Assembly: GCA_903823115.1 (NCBI GenBank)
Contig: CAIJRN010000016.1
Location: 1 to 64,000 of the forward strand
Direction of reading: 5' to 3'
Source: an uncultured cyanobacterium
GTDB taxonomy: Bacteria > Cyanobacteriota > Cyanobacteriia > PCC-6307 > Cyanobiaceae
DNA: 64,000 bases
Part shown: positions 30,371 to 37,619 of the stretch, in pieces
Position numbering within the stretch: position 1 is the first letter of the stretch
How the letters are laid out: each line of letters begins with the position of its first letter
The notes under the pieces: generated by a model
Told to the model about the DNA's origin: nothing
What the model saw: the letters and a program-made list of their open reading frames with translations, nothing else
The model's database searches: none
Made by a program: the position numbers and the translations under genes

Positions 30371-32050
30371 TCAGCTGGCGGGCGGAGAGGCGTTGGCCCC
30401 ACCGGTCTCCCGCTCCAGCACGGCCCAGTCGATGGCCTGGCGGGTCAGGGCCGTCAGCAGGGAAGCCCGAGAGGCCTGCAGATCCCGCTGCACCAGCAGC
30501 ACCTCGGTGAGGGGATCCACCTGGGCGCGGTAGCGCAGCCGGGCATCGCCAAGGGCACGTTGCTGGGCGATCACGGCCTCGCGAGCGGCGGCGATCACGG
30601 TGGCTGAACCCTGCAGCGACGCCCAGGCCCGGCTGACATCCTGGCGAATCTGCTGCCGGGCCAGATCTTCGTCAGCCTGCAACAGATCTCCCTGACGCTC
30701 AGCAACAGCGGCGCTGGAGGCGGAACGGCCGCCATCCCAGAGCGGCTGGCGCAGCAGCAGCGCTGCCCCCCAGTTGTAAAACGAGCCGGACGCCGCACCG
30801 CTCTGCTCCAGGTTCGGCAACGGCAGCGATTGGGAACCGCTGAGCCGTCCAGCCTGCTGCAACGCCGGCACGCTCAGCTGATCGCCGCTGTAGCCGGCGC
30901 CGGCCACCAGGTTCAAGGAGGGATAGAGCAGGGCCCGAGCAGCGCGGGCCTGGGAGCGCTGGCTCTGCTGCTGGAGCCGCAAGGCCTCCAGCAAGGGGCG
31001 TCCCCGCAGGGCGTGCTCGACGCTGTCCTGCAGATTGAGCGGCCAGAGCGGCTGCTCCTCGATCGGATCGGCCGCCAGCGGCCCTGCCGCCAGTGGCAGA
31101 TCCAGCAGGGTGGCGAGCTGCTGCCGCTGGGCCAGCAGCTGGGCTTCCACTTCCGCCAGCCCCTGGCGATCGGCCGCCTGCAGGGCCCGGGAGCGCAGCA
31201 GATCGATCTGGGCCGCCAGGCCGCGGCGGTGGATGGCCTGCACGTCAGCTTCCAGGGCGGTGGAGGCCTGCAGAGCGGCCTGCCAGACCGGCACCAGGGC
31301 CTGGCTCAACTGCAATTGCCGGTAGGTGCTGATCAATTCAAAGCGCACCTGTCGTTCGCTCTCCAGGCGGGAGGCACGGCTGGCCGCCTCCTGGGAGCTG
31401 CTGGCGGCCACTTCGGCCAGCTGACGCAGGGGCAGCAGATTGGCGTTGAGCACCACGCCGGCGTTGCCGAAGCTGTTGCGCAACACGGCATAGCCGTTCT
31501 GCTGCAGGGACAGGGTGAGGTCCCCGAGGGTGGGCAGGTTGGTGAGCACCCCCACCGACGTGCCCACCTGGGTGTAACTGCCCAGTCCGATCAGGTTGAG
31601 CTCAGGTCGCAGCAGCGAGCGGTTCAGAGCTGTGACGGCCCCATCCCGGGCCAGCTGGCGATCGGCACGCACCAGGCGCAGGGACACCGCCAGCCCCTGG
31701 TCCAGCACCTGGCTGAGGCTGAGGCCGAGGGGATCCGCCGGCGACGTTCGGGCGGCCCCAGGGGTCGGCTGGGCTGAGGCGGGCGGCTGGGCGACCAGGG
31801 GTGAGCGGCTCGCCGAGGGGGTAGGCGCCGAGGAGAACGACCGAGCCGCGGCCAAGGGCGCTGGTGACAGCGCCGGGGAGGCGGCACAAGCGGGCCCTGC
31901 CGACAACGCCAGGGCCAGGCCCACTGGCATGCCGCCAGCCAGCGGCCCCAGGGCCCGGACGAGACGCAGCGGCCGCCAGCAGGACTGATCCGATCCGGAA
32001 CCTTGCGACACAGCAGGTGGGGCTGGAGACAGCCCATGGGGTCGCTGCAC
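30371..32050 (-). CDS. TolC-family outer-membrane efflux protein
   Basis: Outer-membrane channel-tunnel subunit for tripartite efflux or type I secretion. About 559 residues if it starts at the GTG at 32050; the frame stays open further upstream (ATG at 32191, 606 residues). A signal peptide around GLALALSAGPACAA is followed by a Pro/Ala/Ser-rich linker and then two OEP repeats of long alpha-helical hairpins (about 160-340 and 360-550) with the characteristic ALxxNPxLxAxR-like and QPLWDGGRSASSAAVAERQ segments. It is divergently transcribed from an HlyD adaptor and FUSC-like transporter, and is probably their outer-membrane partner. Confidence 0.85.
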   Translation of the reverse strand: MQRPHGLSPAPPAVSQGSGSDQSCWRPLRLVRALGPLAGGMPVGLALALSAGPACAASPALSPAPLAAARSFSSAPTPSASRSPLVAQPPASAQPTPGAARTSPADPLGLSLSQVLDQGLAVSLRLVRADRQLARDGAVTALNRSLLRPELNLIGLGSYTQVGTSVGVLTNLPTLGDLTLSLQQNGYAVLRNSFGNAGVVLNANLLPLRQLAEVAASSSQEAASRASRLESERQVRFELISTYRQLQLSQALVPVWQAALQASTALEADVQAIHRRGLAAQIDLLRSRALQAADRQGLAEVEAQLLAQRQQLATLLDLPLAAGPLAADPIEEQPLWPLNLQDSVEHALRGRPLLEALRLQQQSQRSQARAARALLYPSLNLVAGAGYSGDQLSVPALQQAGRLSGSQSLPLPNLEQSGAASGSFYNWGAALLLRQPLWDGGRSASSAAVAERQGDLLQADEDLARQQIRQDVSRAWASLQGSATVIAAAREAVIAQQRALGDARLRYRAQVDPLTEVLLVQRDLQASRASLLTALTRQAIDWAVLERETGGANASPPAS

Positions 32051-32415
32051 GACCAATCGTCGGGCCTGCAACCATGCTGTCCGGATCGAGTCCAATCCCG
32101 ACCAGAGCGATCCGATCGGATCGGCCTCAAGCCAGGCAAAGCCCGCCGCGGCTTCCGGCGAGGCCAACAGCCCTGCTCCTTCAAGTCCCATCCCTTCATG
32201 CCGTGCCTCGACAAGCCGTGCCTCGACAAGCCCTGGGAACCAGGGGAGCCGGGGTTCAGGCGACGCCTGGTGGACGCCAGGACAGCACCGCCCTGGAGCT
32301 AGCCGCCCTGGAGCAAACGGTGGCGCCATCGGCAGAGCAGTTCGGCAACGGAACCGGATCGGTGGCACGACCTTAGGGCTCGTTCGCCTACGATCCTGCC
32401 CAGGTTGATGGGTCC
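32051..32415 (-). promoter_or_regulatory. Divergent spacer between the TolC and HlyD genes
   Basis: 365 bp if TolC starts at 32050. It should carry both promoters; none is clear. It contains a perfect 15-bp tandem duplication (separate entry). The frame remains open on the minus strand through this region, so part may be an N-terminal extension of the TolC protein. Confidence 0.4.
32201..32230. repeat. Perfect tandem duplication of 15 bp
   Basis: CCGTGCCTCGACAAG occurs twice back to back at 32201-32215 and 32216-32230. A 15-bp unit preserves frame; on the minus strand it would encode the pentapeptide LVEAR twice, upstream of the likely TolC start. Confidence 0.85.
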
Positions 32416-33669
32416 ATGGCGGAAGCAGCGCTCTCCCCCTTGTCCCGTCTGTACAGGGCAACCCCAGTGCTGCTGGTGGCGGCTCTCAGCCTCGTCTGGG
32501 CGAGCCGTCCGAGCATTGGTGTGGTGGTGCGCGGCATGGGCGTGCTGGCGCCCCCCGGTGATCGCCGCGGCCTCTATGCCCGTGGCGCCGGAGAGGTGCA
32601 ACAGCTCAAGGTGCGGGTCGGCGAGCAGGTGCAGCTCGGCCAGCTGCTGATCACCCTCAGCCAGGTTGGCCAGAATGCCGCGGGGGCGGGTGGTCCCTCC
32701 ACCAGTCCCCAGCTGCGCCAGGCCCGCCAGGCCGCCCTCGACCAGCAGTTTCTGGTGCAGGAGGCCCAATCCAGATCCCTTGACGCCCAGATGCGATCCC
32801 TGGAGCAACGCCGTCAGCAGATCACCACCACCAACCAGCCGGTGGGGCAACAACTCAAGGCCCTCGACGAGCTGCGCCGGGATGATGTCGTCGCCCGCTA
32901 CAGCCCGCTCTGGGTGAGCGCCCAGGATCTGTGGTTGCGCAATCGGGCCGACCTCAGTGCCCTGCAGGCTCGCCAGGCGGAGCTGATCGCCCAGCGGTCG
33001 GCGCTGGCAGCCCAGAAGGCGGAACTCCAGGCTCAGCGTGCGGCCCTAGCCAGCGAAACCGTTGGCCAGCAGGTGTTCGCTCCGGTGGCGGGTCGGCTGC
33101 TGGATCTGGCGGTGCTGCCGGGCCAGCCGGTGGCGCCCGGCCAGAAACTGGGCAGCATCGCCCTGGCCGATCGCCACGGCGAGCGGCTGGCGATCGTGCT
33201 GTTCACCGCCGCCGACGCCAGTCGCCTGCGGGTAGGCGACGAGGTGCATCTCAATCCCCAATTGCTCAGCCGCGACAGTTTCGGCAGCGCCGAGCAGCGC
33301 TATGGCCTGGTGCCCGGGCGTTTGATCAGCCTGTCCAGAGACAGCGTCGAGGGGCCCGATGTCGCGGCCCAGGTGGGCAGCCAGGAGGAGGCCGCCAATC
33401 TGATGGCCAGCGCCCGCCAGCGCTCCTTCGGCGACGGCGGCGATCTGACCAGCCAGTTACCCGGCCGGGTGGGGGCGCCGCTGGTGCTGGCGGTGGTGCG
33501 GCTGGAGGCAGCGGCCACCCCCACCGGCCTGGCCTGGACCCTGGGCAGCGGGCCAGACCGGCCCCTGCCCCAACGCACCCCCGCCGAAGTCGAGGCCGAG
33601 GTGGAAACCAGGGCACCCCTGGGTTATCTGCTGCCGTTCTGGCGCTGGATGAGCGGATCGCGCCCATGA
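32416..33669 (+). CDS. HlyD/AaeA-type membrane fusion (periplasmic adaptor) protein
   Basis: 417 residues. One N-terminal membrane helix (ATPVLLVAALSLVWA), a split lipoyl/barrel-sandwich domain (GVLAPPGDRRGLYARGAGEVQQLKVRVGEQVQLGQLL and later VFAPVAGRLLDLAVLPGQPVAPGQKLG), a central alpha-helical coiled-coil hairpin (about 95-215, rich in Gln/Arg/Leu/Ala) and a C-terminal beta-barrel. Such adaptors bridge an inner-membrane transporter to TolC. Its stop overlaps the next ATG (ATGA), and the following gene overlaps a FUSC-like transporter, so the three are translated together. Confidence 0.85.
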   Translation: MAEAALSPLSRLYRATPVLLVAALSLVWASRPSIGVVVRGMGVLAPPGDRRGLYARGAGEVQQLKVRVGEQVQLGQLLITLSQVGQNAAGAGGPSTSPQLRQARQAALDQQFLVQEAQSRSLDAQMRSLEQRRQQITTTNQPVGQQLKALDELRRDDVVARYSPLWVSAQDLWLRNRADLSALQARQAELIAQRSALAAQKAELQAQRAALASETVGQQVFAPVAGRLLDLAVLPGQPVAPGQKLGSIALADRHGERLAIVLFTAADASRLRVGDEVHLNPQLLSRDSFGSAEQRYGLVPGRLISLSRDSVEGPDVAAQVGSQEEAANLMASARQRSFGDGGDLTSQLPGRVGAPLVLAVVRLEAAATPTGLAWTLGSGPDRPLPQRTPAEVEAEVETRAPLGYLLPFWRWMSGSRP

Positions 33670-33860
33670 AATTTCCCGTACTCAACCGCCAACGACGCCA
33701 GGCCCTGCTGCTCCCATGGCTGCAGCCGTGGCCCTGGGTGAGTCTGGTGCTGCTGCTCCTCTGCAGCCGCACCGAACCGCCGCGGCTGTGGTTCTGGCTG
33801 GCGCTGCTGTTGATCAGCCTGCTGGTGGGGTTGCTGCAGAGCCAGGCGCGCCGCCCTTGA
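33666..33860 (+). CDS. Small two-helix membrane protein (AaeX-like position)
   Basis: 64 residues: a basic N-terminus (MKFPVLNRQRRQ), two hydrophobic helices (about 18-33 and 40-58) and a short basic tail. It overlaps the HlyD gene by 4 bp and the FUSC-like gene by 4 bp, so it is plainly part of the pump operon. In E. coli the aaeXAB operon likewise includes a tiny two-helix protein (AaeX, DUF1656), but gene order differs and I see no sequence signature that proves homology. Confidence 0.7.
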   Translation: MKFPVLNRQRRQALLLPWLQPWPWVSLVLLLLCSRTEPPRLWFWLALLLISLLVGLLQSQARRP

Positions 33861-35014
33861 GCAGCCCGGTCGAAACGGATGATTCGCTCCCGGGGCGCGC
33901 ACCGGGCCAAGCGACCCTGGCCCTGAGACTGGTGCTGGTGGTGGGACTGGCCGGCGCCCTGACCTGGGCGATCTGCAGGAGCTTCGGCCTGGGTGGGGCC
34001 ACCGCCTATGGCGTCGTGGTGGCGGCCCTGATCATCCGTCCCCGCTTCGATCGCTGGCCGCCGGCGGTGTTCGTGTTACTGCCCGTGGTGATCACCATGG
34101 GCCTGGCCCTTGGCACGGTGCTGAAACCCCTGCTGCAGGGGCCGCCGGTGTGGCAGTTCGCGGTGGTCACCGCCTGCGCCCAGATCCTGGGCCAGGCCCT
34201 GCCCGACAAATTGCTGCTGGTGCGCAACATCCTGGCGGTGCTGGCGGTGCTGCCCCTGCTCAGCGCCAATGCCACCTGGCTCGGCGCCTGGCAGCAGCTC
34301 CTGGCGGTGATCATCGGCCTGGCGGTGGGGGCCCTGTTGCAGGCGGCTCTGCGGCTACCGGGGGAAGGCGGCCAGCCGGAGCCGGAGCTGGCCATGCCGT
34401 CCCGCAGCCTGGCCGCACGGTTTGCCGACCCGTTTTTCTGGCGCAAGCTGGTGATCTCCACCCTGGCCCTGAGCATCGGCCTGGGAGTGGGGGCGGTGGA
34501 TCCCAAATATCTCTACTTCGGCGTCGTGTTGCTGCTCAACGACAGCCTCGGCGCCACCCTGGGCCGGGTGAGGGATCGCATGGTGGGCGTCAGCCTGGGG
34601 GTGTTGATGCCCTGGTTGGTGTTCAACACCCTGGGGGTCAACAGTGTGGCGGTGGCCCTGGTCATGGGAGGCACCACCGCCCTGGTGCTGGCCTTTGGCC
34701 TGGAGGCCCACCTGCGCACGGCCCTGATCTCCAGCGGTGTCACCTTCGTGGGCTACGGCGCCCTGACGGATTGGTATGTCCCCAGCCGCTGGATCGACTA
34801 CCTGCTGGGCAGCGCTCTGGCCCTGCTGGTCTGTCTGCTGGTGCGCCCCGTTTCGGCCCTGCGGCGCTTCCGGCAGCTGGCGGACACGGATCGGACTCTG
34901 ACCGCTGATCTCTCGCCCGAGCTGGCCAGGCTGCTGCCGAGCGCCCTCGAAGAGGCGCGGGTGCTGGGCCAGGAACGGGAGTTCCGCCAGCTGCTGGCCC
35001 GACTGCAAGGCTGA
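33857..35014 (+). CDS. FUSC-like inner-membrane transporter
   Basis: 385 residues from a TTG at 33857 that overlaps the previous stop. About ten hydrophobic helices in two similar halves: ALRLVLVVGLAGALTWAICRSFG opens the first, RKLVISTLALSIGLGVG the second. The stretch VLLLNDSLGATLGRVRDRMVGVSLGVLM is typical of the FUSC/aromatic-acid exporter superfamily (AaeB, YccS), where a conserved Arg-containing helix follows the fifth helix. The roughly 650-residue AaeB also has large cytoplasmic domains; here only a short tail of about 60 residues remains. With the HlyD adaptor and TolC it forms a plausible complete efflux pump; the substrate is unknown. Confidence 0.72.
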   Translation: MSSPVETDDSLPGRAPGQATLALRLVLVVGLAGALTWAICRSFGLGGATAYGVVVAALIIRPRFDRWPPAVFVLLPVVITMGLALGTVLKPLLQGPPVWQFAVVTACAQILGQALPDKLLLVRNILAVLAVLPLLSANATWLGAWQQLLAVIIGLAVGALLQAALRLPGEGGQPEPELAMPSRSLAARFADPFFWRKLVISTLALSIGLGVGAVDPKYLYFGVVLLLNDSLGATLGRVRDRMVGVSLGVLMPWLVFNTLGVNSVAVALVMGGTTALVLAFGLEAHLRTALISSGVTFVGYGALTDWYVPSRWIDYLLGSALALLVCLLVRPVSALRRFRQLADTDRTLTADLSPELARLLPSALEEARVLGQEREFRQLLARLQG

Positions 35015-35034: not shown

Positions 35035-35067
35035 AAAAGCTCGCCAACGGAGGTTGATGCGGCGAGC
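35035..35067 (-). terminator. Rho-independent terminator of the lipoprotein-mscS operon
   Basis: On the minus strand a 7-bp stem GGCTCGCC-side/GGCGAGC-side (35061-35067 with 35039-35045) with a 15-nt loop is followed by TTTT (35038-35035), ten bases past the mscS stop. Confidence 0.6.
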
Positions 35068-35076
35068 CAAGCCCAT

Positions 35077-36264
35077 TCAGCAGGGCGGATCCACACCCCG
35101 ATCAGCAAAGCTCCGGCAGATCGCCAGCCTCAACGCCGCACTCACGGCCCCCGCCCGCAGCGGATCGTTCACGGCCACCGTCAGACTGTAGAGATAGGTA
35201 TCCGGACCGAACTCCTGCAGCCTCGCCTGGGGGGGAGGATCGGCCAGCACCTCGGCCAGGGATGCCGCGATCGCTTCCAGCACCGCCACAATCTGATCGG
35301 GGGGCCAGCGACGCGGCACGCCCAGGTTGATCGTGAGGCGGCGCAGCCGATCGCTGTGGGTGTAGGTGGTGGTGGAGGTGGTGAAAAAGGTCTGATTCGG
35401 CACCACCAACTCGGCGTTGTCACTGCCGCGCCAGAGGGTGGTGGCCCGGGGTCCGAGCCGGCGCACCTCGCAGGCCTCGCCGTCATGGATCAGCACTTCA
35501 CCGGGCCGCACCGAGCCCTCGATCAGCAGCCACAGGCCACTGACGATGTTGGAGAACACCTCCTTGATCCCGAAGCCCAGGCCCACGGAAAAGCCACCGG
35601 CGATGGCGAGCAGCCCGGTCTGGTTGATGCCCAGCCGCTGCAGCGCCCAGATCAGACCGAGAACCACAATGGTGTACTGCAGAATCTGATCCAGGGCCCG
35701 GCGGCTGCCCTCACTGAGGCTCAGGGAGTGCTTCAGCAGGCTGCTCAACCAGGCGGACGGCAAGGGCATGCCCACCATCAGCAGGTAGAGGATGGCCAGC
35801 ACCTGGGCCAGATCGCCGAAACTGATGGCACTGCCGAACCAGATCCCCAGAGGCAGGCTGGCCAGATCCTGGACGCTGCCCAGGGCTTCCAGCACCTGCA
35901 GCAGCACCACGGTGAAGAAGCAGGGCCGCAGCAAACGGCTGACCAGGAGCTGGTACTCGGCCTGCGGCAGGCGGGGCTTGAACACCCGCCGTTCCAGCAG
36001 GCCGAGCAGCAGCCAGCCGAGGCTGACTTCGGCTGCCAGCACCACCAGCCCCGATCGCTGCCCTGCCAGCAGCAGCAGCAGGGCCATCGGCAGCAGGCTG
36101 GCCAGCAGCAGCAAAGCCCAGGGCCAACGCCGCAGGGCCCAGCCATGGCGCCGGACCTGCAGCACCAGCAACACCGCGCCGCCAATCAGCAGCAGCTGGA
36201 CGAGAACGAAGGGACGATGCAGGTAGGCCAGCCAGGCCAGCACCACGTCGAGCAGCACGCTCAT
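35077..36264 (-). CDS. MscS-family mechanosensitive channel
   Basis: 395 residues. Five or so membrane helices; the pore-lining helix is IAGGFSVGLGFGIKEVFSNIVSGL (about 210-233), where small-residue packing is typical of MscS TM3. The beta domain follows with LLIEGSVRPGEVLIHDGEACEVRRLGPRATTLWRGSDNAELVVPNQ, then an alpha/beta C-terminal domain. Such channels open under membrane tension or, in some families, on ligand binding. Its ATG overlaps the stop of the upstream solute-binding lipoprotein (ATGA), so the two are translated together. A terminator follows. Confidence 0.93.
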   Translation of the reverse strand: MSVLLDVVLAWLAYLHRPFVLVQLLLIGGAVLLVLQVRRHGWALRRWPWALLLLASLLPMALLLLLAGQRSGLVVLAAEVSLGWLLLGLLERRVFKPRLPQAEYQLLVSRLLRPCFFTVVLLQVLEALGSVQDLASLPLGIWFGSAISFGDLAQVLAILYLLMVGMPLPSAWLSSLLKHSLSLSEGSRRALDQILQYTIVVLGLIWALQRLGINQTGLLAIAGGFSVGLGFGIKEVFSNIVSGLWLLIEGSVRPGEVLIHDGEACEVRRLGPRATTLWRGSDNAELVVPNQTFFTTSTTTYTHSDRLRRLTINLGVPRRWPPDQIVAVLEAIAASLAEVLADPPPQARLQEFGPDTYLYSLTVAVNDPLRAGAVSAALRLAICRSFADRGVDPPC

Positions 36265-37619
36265 CTGAGCTCCGACTCCAACTTGACCAGCGCCTCAGCC
36301 CCCTGGCTGGGAGACAACACCCCTTCCATCACCTGGGCCACCACACTCTCAACAACGGGCAGCACCCGATTCATCCGGGCCGAAGAGAGGGAGGGCTCGC
36401 GGATCGGCGAGGTGAGCTGATATTGCCGCTGAGCTTCGGCCATGACCGCCAAGCGGCCGGAACTGGCCACCGGAATCGGGGCGTAGCGGTTCACCGGCAC
36501 CAGGATATGACTCGCCAGGGCGAGGCTGCGCTGCACCCCGGGATCGAGGGTGAAGCGCGCCAGATCGATGGCAAGCCGCCGCTGGTGCCCGGAGGAATCG
36601 GCCCCGAGCGCCCACACCCGCAAGGTGGTGAAAGGGGTGGGCAGGCCACCGGGACCGGATGGCAAGGGTGCCACCCCGAGCCGTTTGCCCATCACCCGTT
36701 CCAGCCGGGGGATGGCGAGGCTGAAACAGGGAATCCAGGCCAGACGACCGGACTCCAACCCCTCCACCAGCTCCTCGGGGCCAGCCGCCAGATCGACCCG
36801 GCTCAGTTGGGCGGCCTGCCGCAGCCAGAGCAACCAGGTCCGGATCGCCTGCCGATTCGTCGCCGGATCAGCGGCGGCCTGCCGCTGCCCCGAAAGCAGC
36901 GGCACCAGGGCCTGGCGGGCGCCCAGGGCCCCGACGGTCCACCACAGACCCACCGAATCCAGGGCCAGTCCGATCGGCTGCCCCCCGGCCGCCAACGCCA
37001 ACAGAGCGTCGGTGCTGGCGGGAGGCTCAGCCACGCGCTGGCTGTCGTAACAGGCCAGGCTGGGCTCGCTGAACACCGGCAGACCAGTCAGGCCGAGCGG
37101 AGTCTGCACAGCATGCAGCGCCCGCGGTTCGACCGTCGCCACGGTGGTCGCCAATTCGGCCGTGCGCGGCAGGGCACTGGTCAGGCCCTGCTCCAGCAGT
37201 TCCATCGCCTCAGAGGAGCGCACCAGCAGCAGATCAGGCCCCAGTCCCTGGCGATGGGAGCGGATCAGCTCCTCCGCCAGGTTCGCCTCCGGCACCACTG
37301 CGAACTGCACGTGCACCTCGGGATGCACGCGGGCGAAGGCTTCGAGCAGCGGCCGCCAGGCCGGACCACCGCGGTAGTCCGCCGCCAGCCACTCCATGCC
37401 GGGGCTGAGGGCGAGCGTCACATGGAGGGTCTGGCGCCGCAGCAGCGGCAGCGACTGGCAGCCCACCAGGGAGAACAGCAGCCCCAGCGCCGCAGGCAAC
37501 GCGACCAGCCCGGCCAGGCCGCGGCGCCTGCGGCGGCCTGGCCGGGCCTCCGGCCGCAGCGAGGCGGGGCAGGGGCTCAGGGCAAGCCTTTCAGGCAGAC
37601 GCTGACGGGAACCGAACAC
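36261..37619 (-). CDS. Solute-binding lipoprotein (ABC-type SBP) coupled to MscS
   Basis: About 452 residues from the GTG at 37619. A basic, Arg-rich N-terminus leads to a lipoprotein signal with lipobox LVGC (Cys about residue 54). The mature part looks like a cluster-B extracellular solute-binding protein: LLEAFARVHPEVHVQFAVVP, GPDLLLVRSSEAMELLEQGL, a hinge near TPLGLTGLPVFSEPSLACYD and a long C-terminal lobe. Sugars are the usual ligands of this class. No ABC permease or ATPase gene is adjacent; instead the gene overlaps mscS by 4 bp. It may deliver ligand to an unlinked transporter or regulate the channel. Confidence 0.8.
   Translation of the reverse strand: MFGSRQRLPERLALSPCPASLRPEARPGRRRRRGLAGLVALPAALGLLFSLVGCQSLPLLRRQTLHVTLALSPGMEWLAADYRGGPAWRPLLEAFARVHPEVHVQFAVVPEANLAEELIRSHRQGLGPDLLLVRSSEAMELLEQGLTSALPRTAELATTVATVEPRALHAVQTPLGLTGLPVFSEPSLACYDSQRVAEPPASTDALLALAAGGQPIGLALDSVGLWWTVGALGARQALVPLLSGQRQAAADPATNRQAIRTWLLWLRQAAQLSRVDLAAGPEELVEGLESGRLAWIPCFSLAIPRLERVMGKRLGVAPLPSGPGGLPTPFTTLRVWALGADSSGHQRRLAIDLARFTLDPGVQRSLALASHILVPVNRYAPIPVASSGRLAVMAEAQRQYQLTSPIREPSLSSARMNRVLPVVESVVAQVMEGVLSPSQGAEALVKLESELR

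Follow-up and report, generated by a model that had tools for sequence, protein, structure and literature searches.

Solute-binding proteins (SBPs) are well established as components of pumps and secondary transporters and as parts of receptors. In fused form they also occur in glutamate-receptor-type channels; GluR0, for example, is a single polypeptide with a K+-channel pore and an SBP of a different class from the one considered here. In the bacterial cyclic nucleotide-gated (bCNG) channels the sensor domain is cytoplasmic and fused. We analyzed a 64,000-nucleotide stretch of DNA from an uncultured cyanobacterium of the Cyanobiaceae (GenBank assembly GCA_903823115.1, contig CAIJRN010000016.1, positions 1 to 64,000; the whole stretch is called the window below), in which the gene of a MalE-type lipoprotein lies directly upstream of the gene of a predicted channel of the MscS superfamily. 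Many cyanobacteria encode a distinct MscS-type channel together with such a sugar-receptor-related lipoprotein, and the lipoprotein is probably a dedicated subunit of the channel and not of a nutrient pump.

Each of the closest described systems shares part of this arrangement. In both sequence and structure the channel matches MscK and MscM of Escherichia coli best. These likewise have extra membrane helices before the pore, but they carry a long N-terminal region in the same polypeptide, whereas here a protein of 395 amino acids is accompanied by a separately encoded lipoprotein. The latter resembles MalE-type lipoproteins (CUT1, SBP_bac_1) in fold, profile relation and lipobox; it differs from those of the CUT1 type in that its partner gene encodes a channel, in an invariant cysteine pair and tryptophan, and in having no adjoining ATP-binding cassette (ABC) partner. 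bCNG and other sensor-domain MscS proteins also add a regulatory domain to an MscS pore (one relative, at locus L285, has a cyclic-nucleotide-binding domain), but the candidate sensor is here predicted to be periplasmic and has a gene of its own. GluR0, too, combines an SBP-type domain with an ion channel in cyanobacteria (treated in PMC13099474), but the system described here has two genes, a MalE-class protein and an MscS pore; no fusion of SBP and channel in one open reading frame (ORF) was found in loci L001-L250, and the window has two separate ORFs. The open-licence literature, represented mostly by titles and abstract openings, yielded no description of an SBP-MscS pair. Passages in other papers report salt-induced MscS proteins in Synechocystis (PMC8670252), discuss whether cyanobacteria export glutamate or glutamine through mechanosensitive channels (PMC10897207, PMC13312541), link msc genes to estuarine Synechococcus (PMC9948718), and mention a gene for a sugar SBP and, in a separate place, a large-conductance channel (PMC3170327); the pair is described in none of them. 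The features of the pair in the window are as follows; lipoprotein residues are numbered from the GTG at 37619, the true start being uncertain.

36261-37619, minus strand: gene of the MalE-fold (SBP_bac_1-like) lipoprotein, 452 amino acids counted from the GTG at 37619
35077-36264, minus strand: gene of the MscS-superfamily channel, 395 amino acids; MS_channel_2nd (PF00924) 32.1 bits, above the cut-off of 20.2; MS_channel_1st (PF21088, TM2/3) 29.2 bits, above the cut-off of 23.1
36261-36264, minus strand: ATGA overlap of 4 bp, formed by the SBP stop TGA and the mscS start ATG
37458-37469, minus strand: predicted lipobox LVGC, residues 51-54 with Cys54, from sequence
37050-37052, minus strand: Cys190 of the SBP, first of the invariant cysteine pair (C in 170/170 paired SBPs, 0/8 generic SBPs)
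36939-36941, minus strand: Trp227 of the SBP (W in 170/170 paired, 0/8 generic)
36726-36728, minus strand: Cys298 of the SBP, second of the invariant cysteine pair (C in 170/170 paired, 0/8 generic)
35845-36264, minus strand: channel residues 1-140, predicted N-terminal membrane domain specific to the SBP-paired clade, from the match starts of paired and unpaired relatives

The pairing of the two genes is the main result, and it is seen already within the host genome, where all three members of the lipoprotein family (the other two are 37 and 33% identical to the window copy) are directly followed by an MscS gene, which each of them overlaps by 4 bp. As controls, seven further SBP_bac_1 genes and five further MscS genes of this genome score over their cut-offs, and no gene of either set is near a gene of the other kind; adjacency in this genome is thus more than chance. 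With the lipoprotein as query, matches were found in 89 of 201 genomes of the host's family (75 of 131 among the good ones) and in 54 of 386 genomes across the phylum, the latter belonging to families f1, f6, f11, f13, f19 and f22 of the class (the labels are those of the search tool) and to seven genomes outside it. Loci L001-L250 hold 183 distinct SBP-like ORFs, to which one split SBP contributes two, and 173 of these ORFs are directly followed by the channel gene. The ten others comprise eight generic SBPs from outside the class (L093-L100), one of which (L094) has just 273 bases of contig left downstream, and two cases at contig edges: L021, with 141 bases left, and L174, an antisense artefact. 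The spacing between the genes is mostly an overlap or a very short gap; a start codon stands at the -4 position in 110 of the 173 pairs (this codon was preferred whenever present), and 2 of the 173 have none in the examined stretch. A search of the plasmid collection gave no SBP match at E 1e-5. Among the 20 listed genomes of the host's family without the SBP, 18 are of 1.9 Mb or less, and the pair seems rare in streamlined genomes, although many of the 20 are incomplete and a further 92 non-matching genomes are unlisted.

The channel as query gives the same picture. Named genomes gave 409 confirmed matches, of which the 80 best were retained; an SBP lies directly upstream in 77 of the 80, and the remaining three channels begin less than 120 bases from a contig end; at L174 and L179 the contig holds only the C-terminal part of the upstream SBP. 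These relatives belong mainly to Cyanobium, Vulcanococcus and Synechococcus, which places the source of the window among the picocyanobacteria close to them; the nearest named record is a Synechococcaceae metagenome-assembled genome (MAG; L171, channel 91% identical). Two of the kept loci, L172 and L232, are on records labelled as a Bifidobacterium breve MAG (CALPNT020000010.1, CALPNT020000031.1); they hold cyanobacterial-type pairs, with channels 85 and 44% identical to that of the window, and the species name is probably wrong. In a class-wide search (291 genomes, up to six candidates scored in each), the matches listed fall into two groups: 31 are full-length, with E of 2.7e-89 or lower, and the others, whose E values begin at 6e-71, do not cover the N-terminal part. 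Assigned to loci by position, the full-length matches have an SBP upstream in all 31 cases (with a broken frame in one, L298), and the partial ones in none of 16 sampled loci, a sample taken mostly from the top of the group and including one locus (L292) with only 759 bases of contig upstream. A further 17 channel-match loci, with 1.5-kb flanks and partly the same genes, showed an SBP in three and none in 14; two of the three (L301 and L321) are the genes of L281 and L282 again, and the third (L322) is another pair, from family f23. Families f5, f15 and f23 are thereby added to the six above. The initial annotation had asked whether adjacency is conserved: it is kept in nine families of the class and in both search directions, far past close relatives.

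The two groups of channel matches differ in one defined region. The 31 paired matches start by position 48 of the model, whereas the 16 sampled unpaired relatives start at 116-165; since all 31 full-length matches are paired and none of the 16 partial ones is, the N-terminal membrane domain of the channel goes with the SBP partner. By hydropathy, the helices of the predicted structure (predicted local distance difference test, pLDDT, 80.9) and the charged loops, the channel fits seven membrane helices with the N-terminus outside and the C-terminus inside, a topology in which the first helix would adjoin a periplasmic partner. Membership of the MscS superfamily, as a predicted channel, follows from two of the three Pfam MscS domains scoring over their cut-offs, the third (MS_channel_3rd) reaching 18.1 bits, slightly under its cut-off of 21. 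Its best NCBIfam match is MscK (E 9.7e-36), far under the equivalog cut-offs for MscK (122.9 against 991 bits) and for MscM (90.2 against 809 bits). MscK chains also top the Foldseek list for the channel model (388 and 399 alignment columns), with TM-scores of only 0.31-0.33. An unpaired MscS relative (L285:3341-4843) carries the cyclic-nucleotide-binding domain mentioned above, in a genome that also has a pair.

The lipoprotein had been annotated from its sequence as an ABC-type solute-binding lipoprotein, and its relatives, family profile and fold agree with this, while the window protein by itself falls short of the Pfam SBP_bac_1 threshold (22.9 bits, cut-off 26) and matched no NCBIfam model at E up to 1. 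Its assignment to the SBPs is made because the SBPs of relatives pass that threshold (61.6 bits in L280, 38.1 bits in L281), the lipoprotein-family profile retrieves maltose-binding protein (E 5.1e-22), and the predicted structure (pLDDT 87.9, pTM 0.82) matches MalE-type proteins across the whole mature length (best Z 35.7, to GacH, with a root-mean-square deviation of 3.2 over 361 aligned residues). In an alignment of 170 paired SBPs with the eight generic SBPs from outside the class, Pro320 is invariant among the paired proteins, as are Cys190, Cys298 and Trp227; of these, only the proline is also found in the generic SBPs (6/8). The SBPs of L280, L281 and L282, which are additional to the 170, keep both cysteines and the tryptophan, and in 30 orthologues of a true ABC SBP of the host the positions of Cys190, Trp227 and Cys298 are Tyr/Phe, Tyr and Asn, respectively. 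A disulfide between Cys190 and Cys298 is likely. The column of the lipobox cysteine is C in 157 of the 170, and 125 match the strict lipobox pattern; of the remainder, many have a looser lipobox or an ORF whose start is misplaced, and in a few the hydrophobic stretch at the N-terminus lacks a cysteine. The SBP evolves faster than the channel (mean distance 2.99 against 2.12).

Two loci join the partners in another way. In L281 (family f15) and L282 (f23), whose SBPs are 70% identical, the SBP has an extra C-terminal stretch ending in a transmembrane (TM) helix, and the partner channel is without its usual first helix, so that the helix counts of the two proteins are swapped. The SBP helix is probably the channel's own TM1 relocated, a similarity that comes mainly from L281: among 175 targets scored against a profile of the channel N-terminus, the L281 tail comes out top at 18.1 bits (E 1.6e-5; 1000 shuffled tails reached at most 11.8), hhalign gives 82% for both tails together against the N-terminus alignment, and in a search with the L281 lipoprotein the alignment in genomes G329 and G305 continues past the SBP stop into the downstream channel gene in the same frame. 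Such a relocation from one protein to the other would be hard to explain unless both work together. The channels of these two loci also carry a globin domain (PF00042) at the C-terminus (L281:3868-5613, E 1.8e-16; L282:3904-5637, E 5.4e-17); in the families concerned (42 and 63 genomes searched), no further match spanning channel and globin was present among the matches listed.

Taken with the pairing in both search directions, the nine families and the scarcity of ABC genes at the pair loci, the swap in helix count strongly supports the coupling of lipoprotein and channel that had been inferred from the window, and we regard functional coupling as likely. With similar confidence we propose a two-protein module in which an SBP-derived lipoprotein serves as auxiliary subunit of a distinct MscS clade and alters its gating; the physical complex and the effect on gating are what we infer from the genomic data. 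The lipoprotein would be anchored in the membrane and rest on the extra N-terminal helices of the channel from the periplasmic side, and the opening and closing of its two lobes, or its mere presence, would alter how easily the channel opens under membrane stretch. Such a separately encoded SBP subunit would be a new mode of regulation of bacterial osmotic valves and would give a testable model of how an SBP is recruited to a channel; it also suggests that some cyanobacterial SBP genes resembling orphan sugar transporters may belong to osmotic channels.

Several results weigh against this proposal. The L282 tail scores -7.6 bits against the N-terminus profile after a bias correction of 19.7, the last of 131 listed, which lowered our confidence in functional coupling slightly. 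In pairwise comparison the L281 tail scores 54, barely above shuffled sequences (52) and one ordinary SBP tail (52), and the L282 tail scores 41, below both of these and below other TM segments (47). Intact channels stand beside broken SBPs at L298:2600-3845 (genome G162), where the frame is in three pieces, and at L181:3642-5004 (also L025) in Cyanobium sp. FACHB-13342, where the SBP is split into two overlapping ORFs, unless these frames are sequencing errors. Covariation between the proteins was uninformative: across 170 pairs (effective number about 97), the top mutual information scores hardly exceeded what within-clade shuffling gave. On the side of the proposal, the trees of SBP and channel agree (r 0.92 for the 170 pairs; permutation maximum 0.18), as is expected for any linked pair.

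The genes could also be merely co-expressed, the lipoprotein serving an unlinked ABC importer and sharing an operon with the channel since both answer osmotic stress. The host does encode several ABC importers (20 PF00528 matches), and SBPs are known to be able to serve distant permeases. We nevertheless consider this explanation improbable: the pairing has persisted across nine families and after duplication; the CUT1-type cluster of the host (contig C83) comes with an SBP of its own, whose gene overlaps that of the permease; the pairs have no recurrent ABC neighbours (permease-like genes at 2 and ABC-ATPase-like genes at 10 of 175 pair loci, some of them from the same genomes); and pocket positions, as detailed below, are not preferentially conserved in eight of the nine paired clades. 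The initial annotation had named reliable partnership of the SBP with an unlinked ABC permease as an outcome that would speak against its inference, and the loci give no sign of one. A plain sugar importer was likewise rejected as the main explanation, given the absence of a recurring ABC partner and the pocket results in most clades. Still less probable, in our estimate, is an SBP-dependent facilitator, in which the lipoprotein supplies the channel with solutes that are selectively taken up or recaptured, and the pair is a transporter and not a regulated valve. Delivery of substrate in trans by SBPs is general knowledge from ABC and tripartite ATP-independent periplasmic (TRAP) systems, but MscS pores are wide and poorly selective, and most clades have no preferentially conserved binding pocket; the discussion of mechanosensitive channels as metabolite exporters in cyanobacteria, in passages of two papers (PMC10897207, PMC13312541), would be in keeping with it.

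Whether a ligand is involved is a separate matter. A ligand-regulated or ligand-sensing MscS complex had been raised as conceivable from the window sequence; in its direct form, the lipoprotein would take up a solute in the periplasm, for instance glucosylglycerol, sucrose or another compatible solute, and in its bound state would open or close the channel. The MalE-type fold across the whole mature length speaks for this, three divergent paralogues in one genome would suit different ligands, and the invariant Trp227 aligns with Phe156 of MalE, next to what we take to be the sugar-stacking Tyr155. The conservation of the pocket does not bear it out. Pocket positions were mapped by sequence alignment from a list of residues that we take to be the maltose contacts of MalE, and ten were chosen post hoc because N- and C-terminal positions had aligned badly in an earlier version with 16, in which even the ABC control fell short of significance (p 0.17). 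The ten positions are conserved above background in the 30 ABC orthologues (0.92 against 0.72, p 0.003), but among the nine paired clades that the tightest cut defines, just one shows this (p 0.048, uncorrected; the others p 0.095 to 0.81), and looser clade cuts gave p 0.089 to 0.93. Comparison of the two SBP lobes showed no clear asymmetry in conservation. The best reading of these alignments is that the MalE-type fold is kept and the sugar site is not generally kept, although some paired clades may still bind something. We therefore regard ligand gating as possible but rather unlikely. Equally tentative, and if anything more doubtful, is the fuller idea that the MalE-type lipoprotein acts in trans as sensory subunit of the MscS-type pore and tunes cyanobacterial osmotic release to periplasmic solutes, with L281 and L282 wired more tightly by the TM1-like receptor helix and the cytoplasmic globin; if it were true, the L281/L282 type would be a channel equipped with sensors on both membrane sides.

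As to the surroundings of the pair, the window agrees with the description given from its sequence in most respects. The ORFs, the 4-bp overlap and the lipobox with its cysteine are present as listed above, and no ABC partner is at hand: the contig has no match to the binding-protein-dependent (BPD-type) ABC permease family (PF00528, E up to 0.001). The upstream neighbour, from 37719, is divergent and cupin-like, although its match to the cupin family misses the cut-off, and the downstream one, ending at 35014, is convergent and FUSC-like; with neighbours so oriented, the lipoprotein-mscS pair is an isolated unit. It had also been said to end in its own terminator, and a candidate is present.

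35035-35068, minus strand: possible terminator hairpin, weak, with a stem of 7-9 bp and a 13-base loop, followed by UUUU

The hairpin is G+C-rich, with seven Watson-Crick pairs (nine including end G-U pairs) and only UUUU behind it. It is, however, absent from the list of a consensus terminator scan, and the region folds no better than shuffled sequence (z -0.01), so that the hairpin and its U-tract stand and the assignment as a terminator is doubtful.

A search for a third conserved neighbour of the pairs was muddied by antisense ORFs. One neighbour does recur, in a cluster of 44 loci where 42 of the 44 ORFs lie upstream on the opposite strand; from its sequence it is presumably valyl-tRNA synthetase. 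In the window itself, the region adjoining the pair (30371-35014) holds a TolC-like gene on the minus strand, assigned from sequence, and HlyD-like and FUSC-like genes on the plus strand, and resembles an efflux system.

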